Part shown: piece by piece, positions 5,753-21,741 of the stretch | How the letters are laid out: each line of letters starts with the position of its first letter | How positions within the stretch are numbered: position 1 is the first letter of the stretch | Assembly (NCBI GenBank): GCA_026709935.1 | Contig: JAPOSC010000056.1 | Coordinates: 1-64,000 of the forward strand | Length of the DNA stretch: 64,000 nucleotides | DNA from: Thiotrichales bacterium | Lineage (GTDB): Bacteria > Pseudomonadota > Gammaproteobacteria > HK1 | Direction of reading: 5' to 3' | The notes under the pieces: model-generated | The model's input: the letters and a program-made list of their open reading frames with translations, nothing else | Database searches by the model: none | What the model was told of the DNA's origin: nothing | Translations under genes and position numbers: made by a program

Positions 5753-6889
5753 TCAGCTCTCGGGCCGGAACGACGGATGCACCACCTGTCCGTCCCGCGT
5801 GAGTCCGGTGCCGGTCACCAGTTCGTCGCTCCAGTCGAACGCGACGGCACCGGTCTCGCGGTCGACGAACGGGGACACGAAGTTGTAGAGGTTGCGCGCG
5901 TAGAGCGCCGATGCGTCCACCGGCAGGCACCCCGGCACGTTGATGTGACCGATGATCCGTACCCCGCCGTGGTCGACAACCTCGCCCGCGCGCGACAGCG
6001 GGCAGTTCCCGCCCTGCTCCACCGCGAGGTCCACGACGATGCTGCCGGGCTTCATGCTCGCGACCATCGCCTCGGTGACGAGCACCGGGGCCGGTCGGCC
6101 GGGAATGAGGGCGGTGGTGATCACGATGTCCTGCTTCGCGAGATGCTCGGCCACCAGCGCCGCCTGCCGGCGCCGGTAGTCCTCGCTCATCTCCTTCGCG
6201 TAGCCGCCCGCGGTCTCTGCCGCCCCGGTCTCCTCGCTTTCGACCATCACGAAGGACGCGCCCAGACTCTCCACCTGCTCCTTCACCGCGGAGCGGACAT
6301 CGGTGGCGCTGACGATGGCGCCGAGGCGCCGCGCGGTCGCGATCGCCTGCAACCCCGCCACCCCGGCTCCGAGCACGAACACCCGGGCCGGCGGCACCGT
6401 ACCGGCCGCGGTCATCATCATCGGCATCGCCCGCGCGAACATCGCCGAAGCGTCGATCACCGCCTTGTAGCCGGCGAGGTTCGCCTGCGAAGAGAGCACG
6501 TCCATTGACTGCGCGCGACTGATCCTCGGCACCAGCTCCATCGCGAACGCATTGATGCGGGCGGCGGCGTAGGCGTCCACCGCCTCGCGGTCGCCGTAGG
6601 GCGAGAGCATGCCGACGAGCGCGGCTCCCGGCGGTATCGCGGACAGCTCGGCGCCGGTCGGTGCCCGGACCCTGAGCACCACATCGGCATCGGCGTGCAG
6701 AGCTGCGCCGTCATCGACGAGCGTCGCGCCCGCCGCCTCGTAGTCCGCATCCGCGAACCCCGCCGCCGCGCCCGCACCGCGCTCAACCGCCACCTCCAGA
6801 TTCAGCGCCCGAAACTTCTTCGCGGTCTCCGGGGTGAGTGCGGCCCGGGTCTCGTGGGGATGGGATTCCTTCGGTACCGCCAGCTTCAT
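5753..6889 (-). CDS. pntAa: NAD(P) transhydrogenase subunit alpha part 1
   Basis: A 378-residue soluble NAD(H)-binding subunit of the AlaDH/PNT family. It starts MKLAVPKESHPHETRAALTP and has the Rossmann motif VLGAGVAGLQAIATARRLGA and the RQAALVAEHLAKQDI and PGRPAPVLVT stretches. It binds NAD(H) at the cytoplasmic face and passes hydride to PntB. ATG 6889 is preceded by an AGAAAGG-type ribosome site and gives the standard N terminus; the longer opening in this frame runs antiparallel-free into ispG and was ignored. First gene of pntAa-pntAb-pntB; 65 bases downstream of ispG on the same strand. Confidence 0.94.
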   Translation of the reverse strand: MKLAVPKESHPHETRAALTPETAKKFRALNLEVAVERGAGAAAGFADADYEAAGATLVDDGAALHADADVVLRVRAPTGAELSAIPPGAALVGMLSPYGDREAVDAYAAARINAFAMELVPRISRAQSMDVLSSQANLAGYKAVIDASAMFARAMPMMMTAAGTVPPARVFVLGAGVAGLQAIATARRLGAIVSATDVRSAVKEQVESLGASFVMVESEETGAAETAGGYAKEMSEDYRRRQAALVAEHLAKQDIVITTALIPGRPAPVLVTEAMVASMKPGSIVVDLAVEQGGNCPLSRAGEVVDHGGVRIIGHINVPGCLPVDASALYARNLYNFVSPFVDRETGAVAFDWSDELVTGTGLTRDGQVVHPSFRPES

Positions 6890-6954
6890 GAATTCGACCT
6901 TTCTGGAACGGGTTCGGAGGCACGGCCGGAAGCGGCCGAGCGCCAGCGGCGCAC

Positions 6955-17634: not shown

Positions 17635-18060
17635 GTGAACCACCGAGGCATTCGCAGCCGCACCCGCCGGGTGGCGCTGCAGGCGCTGTACCAGTGGCAG
17701 ATGACCGGACACTCGGCGGAGGAACTCCACGCGCAGTTCAGCGAGAACCCGCCGCCGGGAGGATTCGATCCGGTCTTCTTCGACGCTCTGGTGGGCGGCG
17801 TGATCATCGATTTCGAGACCCTCGACGCCGAGATCGCGGCATTCGCCGACCGGCCGGTGGCTCAGCTCGACCCGGTCGAGCGCGCCATCCTGCGCATGGG
17901 CGCGCACGAGCTGCGCTCCATGGTCGATGTGCCCTGGCGGACGGTCATCGACGAGGCGGTGGAGCTCGCCCGCACCTTCGGCGCGGAGCAGAGCCACAAG
18001 TACGTCAACGGCGTGCTCGATCGGGTGGCGCGCCGCCTGCGGCCGGAGCAGGGACTCTGA
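17635..18060 (+). CDS. nusB: Transcription antitermination factor NusB
   Basis: A 141-residue all-helical protein of rRNA antitermination, partner of NusE/S10 on boxA RNA. Marks are RTRRVALQALYQWQMTG, PVERAILRMGAHEL and the VPWRTVIDEAVELARTFGAEQSHKYVNGVLD block. GTG 17635 is the start, with a CGGAG box just upstream. It is in the conserved ribH-nusB-thiL context. About 220 bases separate it from the next gene, where the thiL N terminus would be expected but is missing. Confidence 0.94.
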   Translation: MNHRGIRSRTRRVALQALYQWQMTGHSAEELHAQFSENPPPGGFDPVFFDALVGGVIIDFETLDAEIAAFADRPVAQLDPVERAILRMGAHELRSMVDVPWRTVIDEAVELARTFGAEQSHKYVNGVLDRVARRLRPEQGL

Positions 18061-18279: not shown

Positions 18280-19227
18280 GTGAGAGAAGAAGCCGAGCAC
18301 GTGGTGGTGGCCCTCGACACCCTCGTCGGCGGCGTGCATTTCCCGGCCGACACCCCGGCGTACGACGTCGGATACAAGGCGCTCGCGGTCAACCTGAGCG
18401 ATCTCGCCGCGATGGGGGCGGTCCCGACCGAGGCGGTGGCGGTGGTCTCGATGCCCGAGCCCCTCGGCCCGCCCTGGCTCGCGGAGTTCCGCGCGGGACT
18501 CGCGTCGCTGGCCGACTCGCTGGGGGTTGCGCCGGGGGTCGTGGTCGCCGCCGTCGACGCCGTACCCGGCGCCCTGTCGGTGAGCGTCGAAGTACAGGGG
18601 CGCTGCTCGGCCGGAAAGGCACTGACCCGGGTCGGCGCCCGCGCAGGAGACCGGATCTTCGTCTCCGGGACGCTCGGAGACGCGGGGGGCGGGCTCGAAA
18701 TCGCGCTGGGGAGACGCCCGGAACGACCCGGCGCAAGCGCCCGCGCACTCGTCGCCCGGCTGCGACGCCCGGAACCGAGGTTGGCTCTCGGTGTCGCGTT
18801 GCGCGGCATCGCCGGGTCCGCCATCGACGTCTCGGACGGGCTGTGCCAGGACCTGAATCACATTCTGACCGCCAGCGGCGTGGGCGCACGCGTGGATGCC
18901 AGCCGCGTACCCCTGTCGCCCGCGCTCCGCGAGGTGATGGGGGACGGCGGGGCGCGATCACTCGCGCTCTCGGCCGGCGACGACTACGAACTGCTGTTCA
19001 CCGTGGCGCCGGAGCGCGTAGGTCGCCTCGGGACCCTGAAATTGGCGGATGCGTCATTGCGGCACGATTTTTCGTCGGTCACCGAGGCCGGAGTCATCGA
19101 GCCCGAGCCCGGTCTGCGCCTCACCGAAATCGGAGTGATCGAGCCCGAGCCCGGCTTGCGACTGGAGGACGCCGCCGGGACCGCGATACCGGTACCGGCG
19201 GGATACCGTCACTTCCCGACCCAATGA
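18280..19227 (+). CDS. thiL: Thiamine-phosphate kinase homologue lacking the N-terminal motif
   Basis: A 315-residue ThiL/PurM-superfamily protein in the place of thiL after nusB. It has DTLVGGVHF at 13-21, NLSDLAAMGA at 38-47, AIDVSDGL at 181-188 and GDDYELLF at 233-240. It lacks the usual first ~40 residues with GIGDDAA, and the GGDTTRG motif is replaced by VVVAAVDAVPG near 87-97. An in-frame stop at 18253-18255 leaves no room for the missing N terminus, and no other frame upstream encodes it. A 14-residue tandem duplication (GVIEPEPGLRL twice, 271-297) lies near the end. ThiL makes thiamine diphosphate from the monophosphate with ATP. The missing motifs occur in the ORF at 20618. It may be a degenerate copy or one half of a heteromer. 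Confidence 0.85.
   Translation: MREEAEHVVVALDTLVGGVHFPADTPAYDVGYKALAVNLSDLAAMGAVPTEAVAVVSMPEPLGPPWLAEFRAGLASLADSLGVAPGVVVAAVDAVPGALSVSVEVQGRCSAGKALTRVGARAGDRIFVSGTLGDAGGGLEIALGRRPERPGASARALVARLRRPEPRLALGVALRGIAGSAIDVSDGLCQDLNHILTASGVGARVDASRVPLSPALREVMGDGGARSLALSAGDDYELLFTVAPERVGRLGTLKLADASLRHDFSSVTEAGVIEPEPGLRLTEIGVIEPEPGLRLEDAAGTAIPVPAGYRHFPTQ
19090..19173 (+). repeat. 42-bp tandem duplication inside thiL
   Basis: Two copies of a 42-bp unit, starting ggagtcatcgagcccgagcc and ggagtgatcgagcccgagcc, encode two successive 14-residue blocks of the thiL C-terminal region. The reading frame is kept. Confidence 0.9.
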
Positions 19228-19310
19228 CGGACGAGCGCATCCATTCCCCCGCCGAGTGCGACATGACCGGTGCGCGCATTGCCATCGCGGCGGCCCGGCC
19301 CGGTTCATTG
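19224..19310 (+). pseudogene. Truncated duplicate of the ribH 5' end
   Basis: ATG 19224 overlaps the thiL stop. The reading frame gives SPAECDMTGARIAIAAARP, closely matching SPAEYDVTGARIAIAAARF of the intact ribH (17146). Similarity stops after about 25 codons and the frame continues into unrelated sequence. At DNA level the match is also strong (ccgccgag.gcgac.tgaccgg.gcgcgcat). It is a partial copy left by a local duplication, not a functional lumazine synthase. Confidence 0.8.
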
Positions 19311-19426
19311 GAAATTCCTATCCGGTCCATGAGAATTCGATCTTGGACCCATGCGCCGCATCGGCACTACGGTGCATACCGTCCATGGTGCGGGACAAAA
19401 GGCGCACCCCCGAATGGAGATGCATC

Positions 19427-19960
19427 ATGAAGCACTCGATCGACGGAAGCACTGGACTGTTTGCTCGGCGCCTGCGAAGCGGAGCGGCAGGCATCGCCGC
19501 CGCCCTGATGATGGCGGCGCTGGCCCCGCCGGCGGCGGCGCAGGGATTCAGGGCGCCGAACGTCGCGGTGAACCAGGGCGAGACCGCGGTCTTCACCATC
19601 ACCCTGCCGTCCCGGCGGAGCCACGCCGTCCGGTACGCCTACCGCACGCTGAACAACGGTGCCAAGGCCGGAATCCACTACGAGGGGAAGTCGGGCCATG
19701 TGGTGTTTCCCGCCGGTACGAGGAAGGCACGGGTCAAGGTCAAGACCTACCGCGATCGTCTTTTTACGAACGCCACGACTTTCTATCTGGAACTCTCCGG
19801 CTTGGAAACGCAACTGGTATCCCTCGGCGGATCACCGTACTGGACCCACTTCTTCAGGGTGAATACGGGCGACCCCATGAACCTTCCTCCGAGCAAGACG
19901 GTGGTCGGAACGATCCGTGCCCCGAATTACCAGTCACAGGGCTGTTCCGCCAAGTGCTGA
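19427..19960 (+). CDS. Secreted Calx-beta-like single-domain protein
   Basis: A 177-residue exported protein. ATG 19427 has GGAGA five to nine bases upstream. Residues ~13-38 are a signal peptide (RRLRSGAAGIAAALMMAALAP, ending near AAAQ). The mature part looks like one Calx-beta domain: GETAVFTITLPS, the YRTLNNGAKAGIHYEG segment in the position of the T..GTA..G.DY motif, VVFPAGTRKARVKVKTYRD and TTFYLELSG. Calx-beta domains bind calcium and mediate adhesion or matrix contacts. Two Cys close the protein (CSAKC). Its place between thiL and pgpA is not usual and coincides with the duplication scars, so it was probably inserted. Confidence 0.7.
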   Translation: MKHSIDGSTGLFARRLRSGAAGIAAALMMAALAPPAAAQGFRAPNVAVNQGETAVFTITLPSRRSHAVRYAYRTLNNGAKAGIHYEGKSGHVVFPAGTRKARVKVKTYRDRLFTNATTFYLELSGLETQLVSLGGSPYWTHFFRVNTGDPMNLPPSKTVVGTIRAPNYQSQGCSAKC

Positions 19961-20091
19961 CCGCGCCGGTGTCGAGCATTCCCCCCTCCCCGGGCGGCGC
20001 ATGACAGCGAAGGACACCGCCCCGGGGAGGGCGCCGGCAGCCAGGGTCGGCGCCCTCCCCGCTTCGACCGAGCAGGCCGCGGCAGCCGCAA

Positions 20092-20123
20092 CCGCAACCC
20101 TCACCACGACCCGGGCATCGTGA
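20092..20123 (+). repeat. Second copy of the 32-bp repeat, containing the pgpA start
   Basis: Matches 18086-18117 at 30 of 32 positions. The GTG at 20120-20122 is the pgpA initiation codon, so the duplication includes part of the pgpA leader. Confidence 0.8.
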
Positions 20124-20608
20124 CGAACGCCCTCCCCCGCCATCGCCCGCGGCCTCGGTCCGTGCTGCACTGGATCGCGTTCGGCGCGGGGGCCGGCCTC
20201 GCCCCGCGGGCGCCCGGCACCGTGGGCACCATCGTCGCGGTCCCGATTTATCTGGCGGTCGGAACCGCACCGGTAGTGGTCTATACGCTCGTGACGGCCT
20301 TCGTCATCGGCGTCGGAATCCGGATCTGCGGGCGCACCGCGCGCGACCTCGGCGTGCACGACCATCCCGGCATCGTGCTCGACGAGATCGCGGGATTCCT
20401 GGTCACGATGACCGCGTTGCCCTTCGAGTGGCCCTGGATCGTGGCGGGTTTCATCGCGTTCCGCGTCTTCGACATCGCCAAGCCGTGGCCGGTCTCGCTC
20501 GCCGACCGCCGGGTCGGTGGAGGGCTCGGGATCATGCTCGACGACGTGATCGCCGGAACTCTTGCATGCGCCGCGCTGCACGCGGTGCGCTACGCATTCG
20601 GCCTCTGA
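20120..20608 (+). CDS. pgpA: Phosphatidylglycerophosphatase A
   Basis: A 162-residue membrane phosphatase that removes the phosphate from phosphatidylglycerophosphate. Marks are GLAPRAPGTVGTIVAVP, the DDHP-like HDHPGIVLDEIAGFLV motif with conserved Asp/Glu, AFRVFDIAKPWPVSLADRR and GLGIMLDDVIAG. Three or four hydrophobic segments fit the family. GTG 20120 is the start because the next start codon would remove the conserved N terminus. The usual order is thiL-pgpA; here a ThiL-like ORF also follows, nine bases after the stop. Confidence 0.93.
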   Translation: MTNALPRHRPRPRSVLHWIAFGAGAGLAPRAPGTVGTIVAVPIYLAVGTAPVVVYTLVTAFVIGVGIRICGRTARDLGVHDHPGIVLDEIAGFLVTMTALPFEWPWIVAGFIAFRVFDIAKPWPVSLADRRVGGGLGIMLDDVIAGTLACAALHAVRYAFGL

Positions 20609-20617
20609 TCGGATTCC

Positions 20618-21064
20618 ATGGACGAATTCGAGTTCATCAGACGCTACTTTCGGGACCGCGCCACCCGGCGCCCCGGCACCGTGCTCGGCATCGGCGACGA
20701 TGCGGCCCTGCTCGACACCGGCGGTTTGCCGCTGGTCCGGGCCTGGGCGACGGCTCCGCTCCGCGCCGACGACGAGGGGGCCGAGACCGCGCGACAGGTG
20801 TTCAGGGCCGCCTTCATCCAGCTCGCCACCCGGGCGGTCAGGCCGCGGTGGGCGACCCTCGCCCTCACCCTGGAAGCAGCGGTCCCCGCACAGGTCGAAT
20901 CCTTCGCGATCGCCGCCACGGCGCTCTGCGATGCGTACGGCGTCGAACTGGTCGGTGGCGACACCACGCGTGGCCCCGGGCGCGCGACCGTCTTCGCGTC
21001 GGGGACGGAGGACACTCGCCACCGGCCCCCTGTCGATGGAAACGAGACCGCTGGCCCCCGATGA
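20618..21064 (+). CDS. ThiL N-domain homologue with complementary motifs
   Basis: A 148-residue protein aligned only with the N-terminal domain of ThiL. It starts MDEFEFIRRYFRD as ThiL does and keeps GIGDDAALL at 24-32 and VGGDTTRG at 112-119. The DTLVxGVHF motif is lost (RAWATAPLRADDEG), NLSDLAAMGA is replaced by IQLATRAVRP, and the whole C-terminal ATP-binding domain is absent. These are exactly the elements present in the 18280 ORF. The start ATG 20618 follows pgpA by nine bases; its stop overlaps mutH (ATGA), which argues for translation as part of the operon. It could be a partner subunit, or a remnant from duplication of thiL-pgpA. Confidence 0.75.
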   Translation: MDEFEFIRRYFRDRATRRPGTVLGIGDDAALLDTGGLPLVRAWATAPLRADDEGAETARQVFRAAFIQLATRAVRPRWATLALTLEAAVPAQVESFAIAATALCDAYGVELVGGDTTRGPGRATVFASGTEDTRHRPPVDGNETAGPR

Positions 21065-21741
21065 CCGAATTCGGCCGCACCCCGCCGCCCCGCAGCGAAG
21101 CCGAGCTTCTGACCCGGGCCGACGCCATCGCCGGACGCACCCTGGGCGATGTCGCGGCAGAGCACGGACCGCCCGTCCCGGCGACCACCCGGCGCGGCAA
21201 GGGCTGGACCGGAACGGTGATCGAGCACGCGCTCGGCGCGAACGCGGGTTCCTTGTCCGAGCCGGACTTCCGGCTGATCTCGGTAGAGTTGAAGACGATC
21301 CCGATCGGCGTGAATCACCGTCCGCTCGAATCGACCTACGTGTGCACGGTGCCGCTGGCGGGCGGCGCCGGCCCGGGCTGGCGGGACTCGAACGTGCGGC
21401 GCAAGCTCGCGCGCGTGCTGTGGGTGCCGTTCGAAGGCGACCGGGCGATTCCGCTGCCCGCGCGACGTATCGGTTCCGCGCTGCTATGGAGCCCGTCGCC
21501 CGCGGAGGAGACAGCGCTCGAGAGCGACTGGGAGACACTGATGGACCGGGTCGTGCTCGGTCGGGTGGAGGAGATCTCGGCCCGGGAGGGCGAGTGCCTG
21601 CAGATCCGCCCGAAGGCCGCCAACGCGGCGGCCCGGCGCCGCGCCATCGGGGCGAGCGGCGCCTGGGAGACGACCCTGCCGCGCGGGTTCTACCTGCGAG
21701 CGCGCTTCACCGCCGCGATCCTCGCCCGGCACTACGCCTGA
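21061..21741 (+). CDS. mutH: DNA mismatch repair endonuclease MutH
   Basis: A 226-residue GATC nicking enzyme of methyl-directed mismatch repair, activated by MutS/MutL. The catalytic set is Glu55, Asp69, Glu76 and Lys78 (PDFRLISVELKTIP), one position off E. coli numbering. KGWTGTVIEHALGA and the C-terminal RPKAANA and PRGFYLRARFT segments are typical. ATG 21061 overlaps the stop of the upstream ThiL-like ORF. MutH is known almost only from Gammaproteobacteria that have Dam methylation, which supports the taxonomic placement. Confidence 0.93.
   Translation: MTEFGRTPPPRSEAELLTRADAIAGRTLGDVAAEHGPPVPATTRRGKGWTGTVIEHALGANAGSLSEPDFRLISVELKTIPIGVNHRPLESTYVCTVPLAGGAGPGWRDSNVRRKLARVLWVPFEGDRAIPLPARRIGSALLWSPSPAEETALESDWETLMDRVVLGRVEEISAREGECLQIRPKAANAAARRRAIGASGAWETTLPRGFYLRARFTAAILARHYA

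Follow-up and report, generated by a model that had tools for sequence, protein, structure and literature searches.

Two complementary thiL paralogues proposed to encode a heteromeric thiamine-phosphate kinase in several families of Gammaproteobacteria

The stretch of DNA analysed here (the window) comprises the first 64,000 nucleotides of contig JAPOSC010000056.1 of a Thiotrichales bacterium (GCA_026709935.1). Two of its genes, A (thiL-A) and B (thiL-B), very probably encode distinct subunits of a single thiamine-phosphate kinase (ThiL) that has one composite active site. As read from alignments, the partition of motifs between A and B is a residue-by-residue match to the published ThiL active site, which is composed in trans at a dimer interface. 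A is proposed to be the subunit of a putative heteromeric ThiL that binds thiamine monophosphate (TMP) and metal, and B the ATP-binding subunit. From this we infer that A and B pair physically, that the pair has kinase activity and that neither protein is active alone. The features of the two genes were as follows.

18280..19227, + strand: gene A (thiL-A); TIGR01379 match, conservation in homologues, AlphaFold 2 (AF2) model, ratio of nonsynonymous to synonymous substitution rates (dN/dS)
18316..18342, + strand: DTLVGGVHF in A, equivalent to PaThiL Asp47 and His54; direct reading and alignment
18391..18420, + strand: NLSDLAAMGA in A, equivalent to PaThiL Asp75; direct reading and alignment
18550..18570, + strand: AVDAVPG in A in place of GGDTTRG, a remnant of the ATP-site loop; alignment
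18826..18843, + strand: DVSDGL in A, equivalent to PaThiL Asp211, Ser213 and Asp214; direct reading and alignment
18976..18996, + strand: GDDYELL in A (within GDDYELLF); direct reading and alignment
20618..21064, + strand: gene B (thiL-B); Pfam AIRS 31 bits, TIGR01379 53.5 bits, conservation in homologues, AF2 model, dN/dS
20624..20650, + strand: helix α1 (EFEFIRRYF) of the adenine pocket in B, missing from A; columns 3, 4, 7 and 11 conserved in B only
20687..20713, + strand: GIGDDAALL in B, equivalent to PaThiL Gly28, Asp29 and Asp30; direct reading and alignment
20954..20974, + strand: GGDTTRG in B (as VGGDTTRG), equivalent to PaThiL Gly121, Asp122 and Thr123; direct reading and alignment

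Coordinates and frames of both genes were correct in an earlier annotation made from the letters alone (the sequence-only reading). A starts with GTG at 18280, ends with its stop at 19227 and encodes 315 amino acids (aa); B extends from an ATG at 20618 to a TGA ending at 21064 (148 aa). The motif inventory drawn up in that reading was confirmed: A has DTLVxGVHF, NLSDLAAMGA, DVSDGL and GDDYELLF and is without GIGDDAA and GGDTTRG, and B has GIGDDAALL and GGDTTRG only. GxGDD was not found in A, and the in-frame codons 5' of its start run into stops, so that no N-terminus is hidden there. In the AVDAVPG remnant both glycines and the TTR are gone and a lone aspartate remains in the window copy. In B, VRAWAT occupies the slot of DTLVxGVHF and AAFIQLATRAV that of NLSDLAAMGA; the N-terminal domain is the whole protein, the C-terminal domain being absent. 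The complete ThiL residue set is thus held by neither polypeptide and is complete across the pair only.

Against TIGR01379 (thiL; curated cut-off 184.15 bits), A scored 228.3 bits over model positions 34-279, above the cut-off, and B scored 53.5 bits over positions 1-125, below it. Both AIRS domains are present in A, the N-terminal one shortened; B has the N-terminal one only. The AF2 model of A (pLDDT 89) contained the sheet β3-β6, helices α2-α3 and the C-terminal domain and was without α1, β1 and β2. The model of B (pLDDT 86.6) contained α1, β1, β3-β6 and α2-α3. ThiL was the top PDB match for both models, which were built on ThiL alignments; the closest solved structures were PaThiL and AbThiL for A, and PaThiL with AMP-PNP and AbThiL (the non-swapped group) for B. 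Near the C-terminus of A (window 19091-19165) a direct repeat encodes GVIEPEPGLRL twice, and relatives in the genus carry different low-complexity insertions at roughly the same site.

ThiL catalyses the final step in the activation of vitamin B1, turning TMP and ATP into thiamine pyrophosphate (TPP) and ADP, and normally consists of two identical subunits. The residues were interpreted on the structures of homodimeric ThiL. ThiL of P. aeruginosa (PaThiL) is a homodimer whose two active sites occupy the inter-protomer cleft; AMP-PNP is bound by one protomer and TMP by the other (PMC13254938). On the ATP protomer, Asp122 binds Mg1 and Asp30 binds Mg3, the backbone of Gly28 and Gly121 contacts the ribose, Thr123 contacts the adenine, and the adenine pocket is made of helix α1 and strands β4 and β5 (PMC13254938). 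From the other protomer, Asp47' and Asp75' bind Mg2, Asp75' and Asp211' bind Mg3, and His54' and Tyr189' contact TMP, with Asp214' reaching TMP through a metal (PMC13254938). The structure of A. baumannii ThiL (AbThiL) agrees with PaThiL in placing ATP on one molecule and TMP on the other (PMC6416309). In PaThiL, strands β1-β2 add to the sheet of the partner protomer (PMC13254938), and in the Aquifex/Thermus group (AaThiL, TtThiL) the N-terminal helix is swapped (PMC6416309, PMC13254938).

Sequences of 22 A, 23 B and 28 single-gene ThiLs from other gammaproteobacterial families were aligned to PaThiL. Since one B ends at a contig edge, G121, D122 and T123 could be scored in 22. The TMP-side residues D47, H54, D75, D211, S213, D214, D219 and H222 were each present in 22/22 A. 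On the ATP side, G28, D29 and D30 were each present in 23/23 B, G121 and D122 each in 22/22, and T123 in 21/22, the remaining one having Ser. Conversely, D47 was left in one of the 23 B and D75 in none, and 15/23 had no residues opposite the C-terminal SDGL region. None of the 22 A had an intact GxGDD (the alignment of the A N-terminus being unreliable), and G121 was left in two. All 28 single-gene ThiLs kept the ATP-side and TMP-side sets in one protein. Within the N-terminal domain, the columns conserved in B only were 3-11 (helix α1), 26-32 (the GDD loop), 85, 88 and 118-124 (GGDTT), columns 85 and 88 being placed in the β4 region, part of the adenine pocket. Those conserved in A only were mainly 47-55, 65-80 and 106-111, and columns 73, 76, 83, 99, 103 and 126 were conserved in A and B alike.

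The sequence-only reading had described one motif set divided between two genes, possibly as two halves. The division held and the simple halves did not: the N-terminal domain is in both proteins, and the motifs are retained in the order B, A, A, B, A along the sequence. Truncation, fission or a frameshift cannot explain losses interleaved in this way; the side of the interface on which each residue lies does. Frameshift, assembly error and gene fission were rejected on these grounds and by the occurrence of the pair in independent genomes. The near full-length B of genome G007 shows the same sorting: it has a C-terminal domain and scores 265 bits, above the ThiL cut-off, and has nevertheless lost D47, D75 and D214, while A of G007 has lost D30, D122 and T123.

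In the mechanism proposed, an ancestral thiL would have been duplicated and each copy would have shed its residues for one of two equivalent sites, leaving an A:B dimer with exactly one complete active site. Helix α1 and the GIGDD and GGDTT loops of B would bind ATP and its metals, and DTLxxGVHF, NLSD and DVSDGL of A would provide the metal ligands from the opposite side and bind TMP across the dimer interface. Phosphoryl transfer from the ATP held by B to the TMP held by A would be in-line, the mechanism already proposed for the homodimeric enzyme. B would be the sole possible donor of the β1-β2 hairpin, to A, as the remaining site requires. The C-terminal domain of B and α1-β1-β2 of A would have served the abandoned second site only and would for that reason have eroded.

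The sequence-only reading had suggested a search for the same two genes in related genomes; 22 genomes, from five families, proved to have the A+B pair. In the window's family (f1), which alone represents its order among the genomes collected, all 17 genomes carry it, and it occurs in four further families, f2 (G017, G056), f44 (G061), f64 (G081) and f121 (G138); this recurrence shows that the pair is not an assembly error. In f44, B was additionally confirmed in G194 and G290. Nearly all others of the 149 genomes drawn from the class have a single full-length ThiL. Among the 80 named loci listed in a control scan, mostly ordinary ThiLs, at least one was split (L080, from the marine-sediment metagenome-assembled genome Gammaproteobacteria bacterium CS4-K024), and the rest of the flagged loci showed variant motifs.

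The usual gene order in the window's family is nusB-A-pgpA-(x)-B-mutH; in G007 and G008, A and B are on separate contigs. B does not adjoin mutH in f2, f44 and f64. In f2 and f44 it is a short standalone gene (136-145 aa in the copies with a clear start) beside a gene for 3-deoxy-D-arabino-heptulosonate 7-phosphate (DAHP) synthase, often with a major facilitator superfamily (MFS) transporter gene on the opposite flank, and in f64 it is flanked by an MFS transporter gene on one side and a sixA-like gene on the other; these neighbours were named by reading their translations. In G138, B and MutH, the mismatch-repair nuclease, share one 410-aa frame (L162:778-2007, minus strand) with no ATG, GTG or TTG near the junction, so that B is probably translated there as an apparent MutH fusion. 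Genome G004 has two copies of B (L039:2120-2953 and 6074-6907) that are 97% identical; the roughly 4 kb separating them include a fragment of mutH.

Compared pairwise inside three genera, A had dN/dS values of 0.14-0.31 and B of 0.11-0.44; the values for pgpA in G005, G012 and G015 were not used, as they came from over-long stop-to-stop frames. The frames of both genes are open in relatives, and neither relaxed selection nor broken frames were found for A or B. Thiamine pyrophosphokinase is the other known family of enzymes that make TPP. Its gene (TIGR01378) was found in 0/17 genomes of the family and in 0/5 further split genomes (G017, G056, G061, G081, G138), and a bypass through this enzyme was rejected for the split genomes searched. 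No complete ThiL was found in the split genomes, nor was a second ThiL found in the window's own genome (3.78 Mb, 96% complete), where the sequence-only reading had proposed to look for one. Two candidates there were rejected as complete thiL genes: C51 (808-aa frame) matched ThiL positions 20-244 with 86 bits and C30 (439-aa frame) positions 38-191 with 39 bits, both far below the cut-off. The window's genome has a thiE (140.7 bits, slightly below cut-off) and therefore probably makes TMP.

The sequence-only reading offered an alternative, that A and B are decaying halves of a thiL duplicate. Neither product would then be functional, and TPP would be obtained otherwise. This would account for the motifs missing from both genes and for the shortness of B, and duplicates of homodimers often decay. 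We consider this alternative highly improbable, being contradicted by the invariance of the complementary residues across five families (22 genomes), by dN/dS values far below 1 and by the lack of thiamine pyrophosphokinase. Real decay looks different: in G069 (L148, contig C8) the gene in the nusB-pgpA slot has lost all motifs in an open frame of about 364 aa, and thiamine pyrophosphokinase is present (L182). This G069 gene is possibly a repurposed pseudo-ThiL. G149 and G067 have no ThiL above the cut-off and have thiamine pyrophosphokinase. In family f52, G199 has a strong N-terminal ThiL match, and G069 and G293 have weak ones; a recent loss of ThiL inside one genus is possible there. A could also be a homodimeric TMP kinase with another nucleotide or phosphate donor site, B being unrelated or regulatory, perhaps as a sensor of ATP that acts on A or MutH. 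Such an arrangement would fit the score of A, which exceeds the ThiL cut-off, the intact TMP side of A, and the position of B, adjacent to mutH in f1 and sharing one frame with mutH in f121. It is nonetheless improbable, since A and B co-occur in 22/22 genomes, the two residue sets lie together on one protein in single-gene relatives, B retains the catalytic metal ligands D30 and D122 beyond its nucleotide contacts, and B is away from mutH in f2, f44 and f64.

A third possibility refines the proposed heteromer: its stoichiometry may differ from 1:1 (A2B2, for example), or B may join an A2 dimer through α1-β1-β2, as in the domain-swapped AaThiL. Swapped N-termini are known in AaThiL and TtThiL (PMC6416309, PMC13254938), but B has a complete N-terminal domain with conserved residues in the β4 and β5 region and is nearest to the non-swapped PaThiL and AbThiL, which makes this variant unlikely. 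Several observations count against a two-subunit ThiL. D122 is retained in 6/22 A, the window A included, so that loss of the ATP side is strong but incomplete by residue. A and B do not share an operon, and in G002 B and mutH are 34 kb from A. B evolves faster than mutH. The AF2 models of A and B rest on alignments of ordinary ThiLs and are biased to the ThiL fold. Finally, neither A nor B was found in G055 (f2), an assembly in 580 contigs. Thiamine pyrophosphokinase was not found in G055 either, which may reflect assembly gaps or a TPP auxotroph.

With these points weighed, the two-subunit ThiL hypothesis of the sequence-only reading is well supported: of the refuting conditions listed there, those checked (a full thiL elsewhere, relaxed selection, a sequence assembly fault) did not apply, and the partition fits a site composed in trans, at which A and B would pair and act as a kinase. 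By sequence comparison, the duplication probably occurred once and was followed by complementary degeneration. A single clade for all A was not rejected (approximately unbiased test, p = 0.35), and a tree of the N-terminal domain, which includes the trait columns, is compatible with A and B having each arisen once. Because B has two genomic homes (mutH; MFS/DAHP synthase), two origins of the split are possible. On balance it is likely that an essential homodimer with two trans-composed sites became, once and anciently, an obligate one-site heterodimer by complementary degeneration, and that this was kept across several gammaproteobacterial families with graded intermediates from a near full-length B to a bare domain of 136 aa.

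Searches of the open-licence literature yielded no description of a split or heteromeric ThiL. Homodimeric ThiL (TIGR01379; PaThiL 8YKS/8YKU, AbThiL 5CC8/5DD7) shares with A+B the fold, the nusB-A-pgpA position, every active-site residue when the pair is taken together and a trans-composed interface site. It differs in that the residues of A+B are split over two paralogues and only one of two sites can be completed, A being without α1-β1-β2 and B without the C-terminal domain. Mutually dependent paralogous subunits are already known from the trypanosomatid deoxyhypusine synthase DHSc/DHSp (PMC3663545). There too a homomer gave rise to two impaired paralogous subunits that need association, as is proposed for A and B; the two systems have no sequence kinship. 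In DHSc/DHSp a dead paralogue activates an impaired one, whereas in A/B the catalytic residues would be divided across one site; moreover, B has lost a whole domain, and DHSc/DHSp is eukaryotic and catalyses other chemistry. PurM, SelD and HypE of the AIR synthase superfamily have the domain fold in common with A and B and differ in substrates, and A and B each match ThiL better than any of them.

If correct, the proposal would give a clear example from nature of a homodimer that became an obligate heterodimer when alternate halves of its two shared sites were lost, and the enzyme concerned is essential in vitamin B1 metabolism. As the losses are interleaved in sequence but sorted by interface side, the genomes lend independent support to the crystal-derived model of the trans active site. 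The surviving intermediates would make the locking of duplicated homomers into heteromers testable. There is also a warning for annotation: A, and B of G007, pass the ThiL cut-off though each is probably inactive alone, and annotators will probably overlook short B genes or label them as fragments. ThiL is an antibacterial target under study.

The genes around A and B in the window were as follows.

17635..18060, + strand: nusB, 5' neighbour of A; TIGR01951, conserved in relatives
20120..20608, + strand: pgpA, directly 5' of B here and following A in most relatives; profile match
21061..21741, + strand: mutH, its start overlapping the B stop (ATGA); adjoins B in most of family f1

No Rfam matches were obtained in the window. 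A occupies the usual thiL slot (order nusB-thiL-pgpA). The operon-like spacing noted earlier for B was verified: 9 bases separate the end of pgpA (20608) from the start of B (20618), and the TGA of B overlaps the ATG of mutH as ATGA at 21061-21064. Between A and pgpA (window 19427-19960) lies a gene for a Calx-beta domain protein with a signal-like N-terminus; in G002, G003 and G004, no gene separates A from pgpA.

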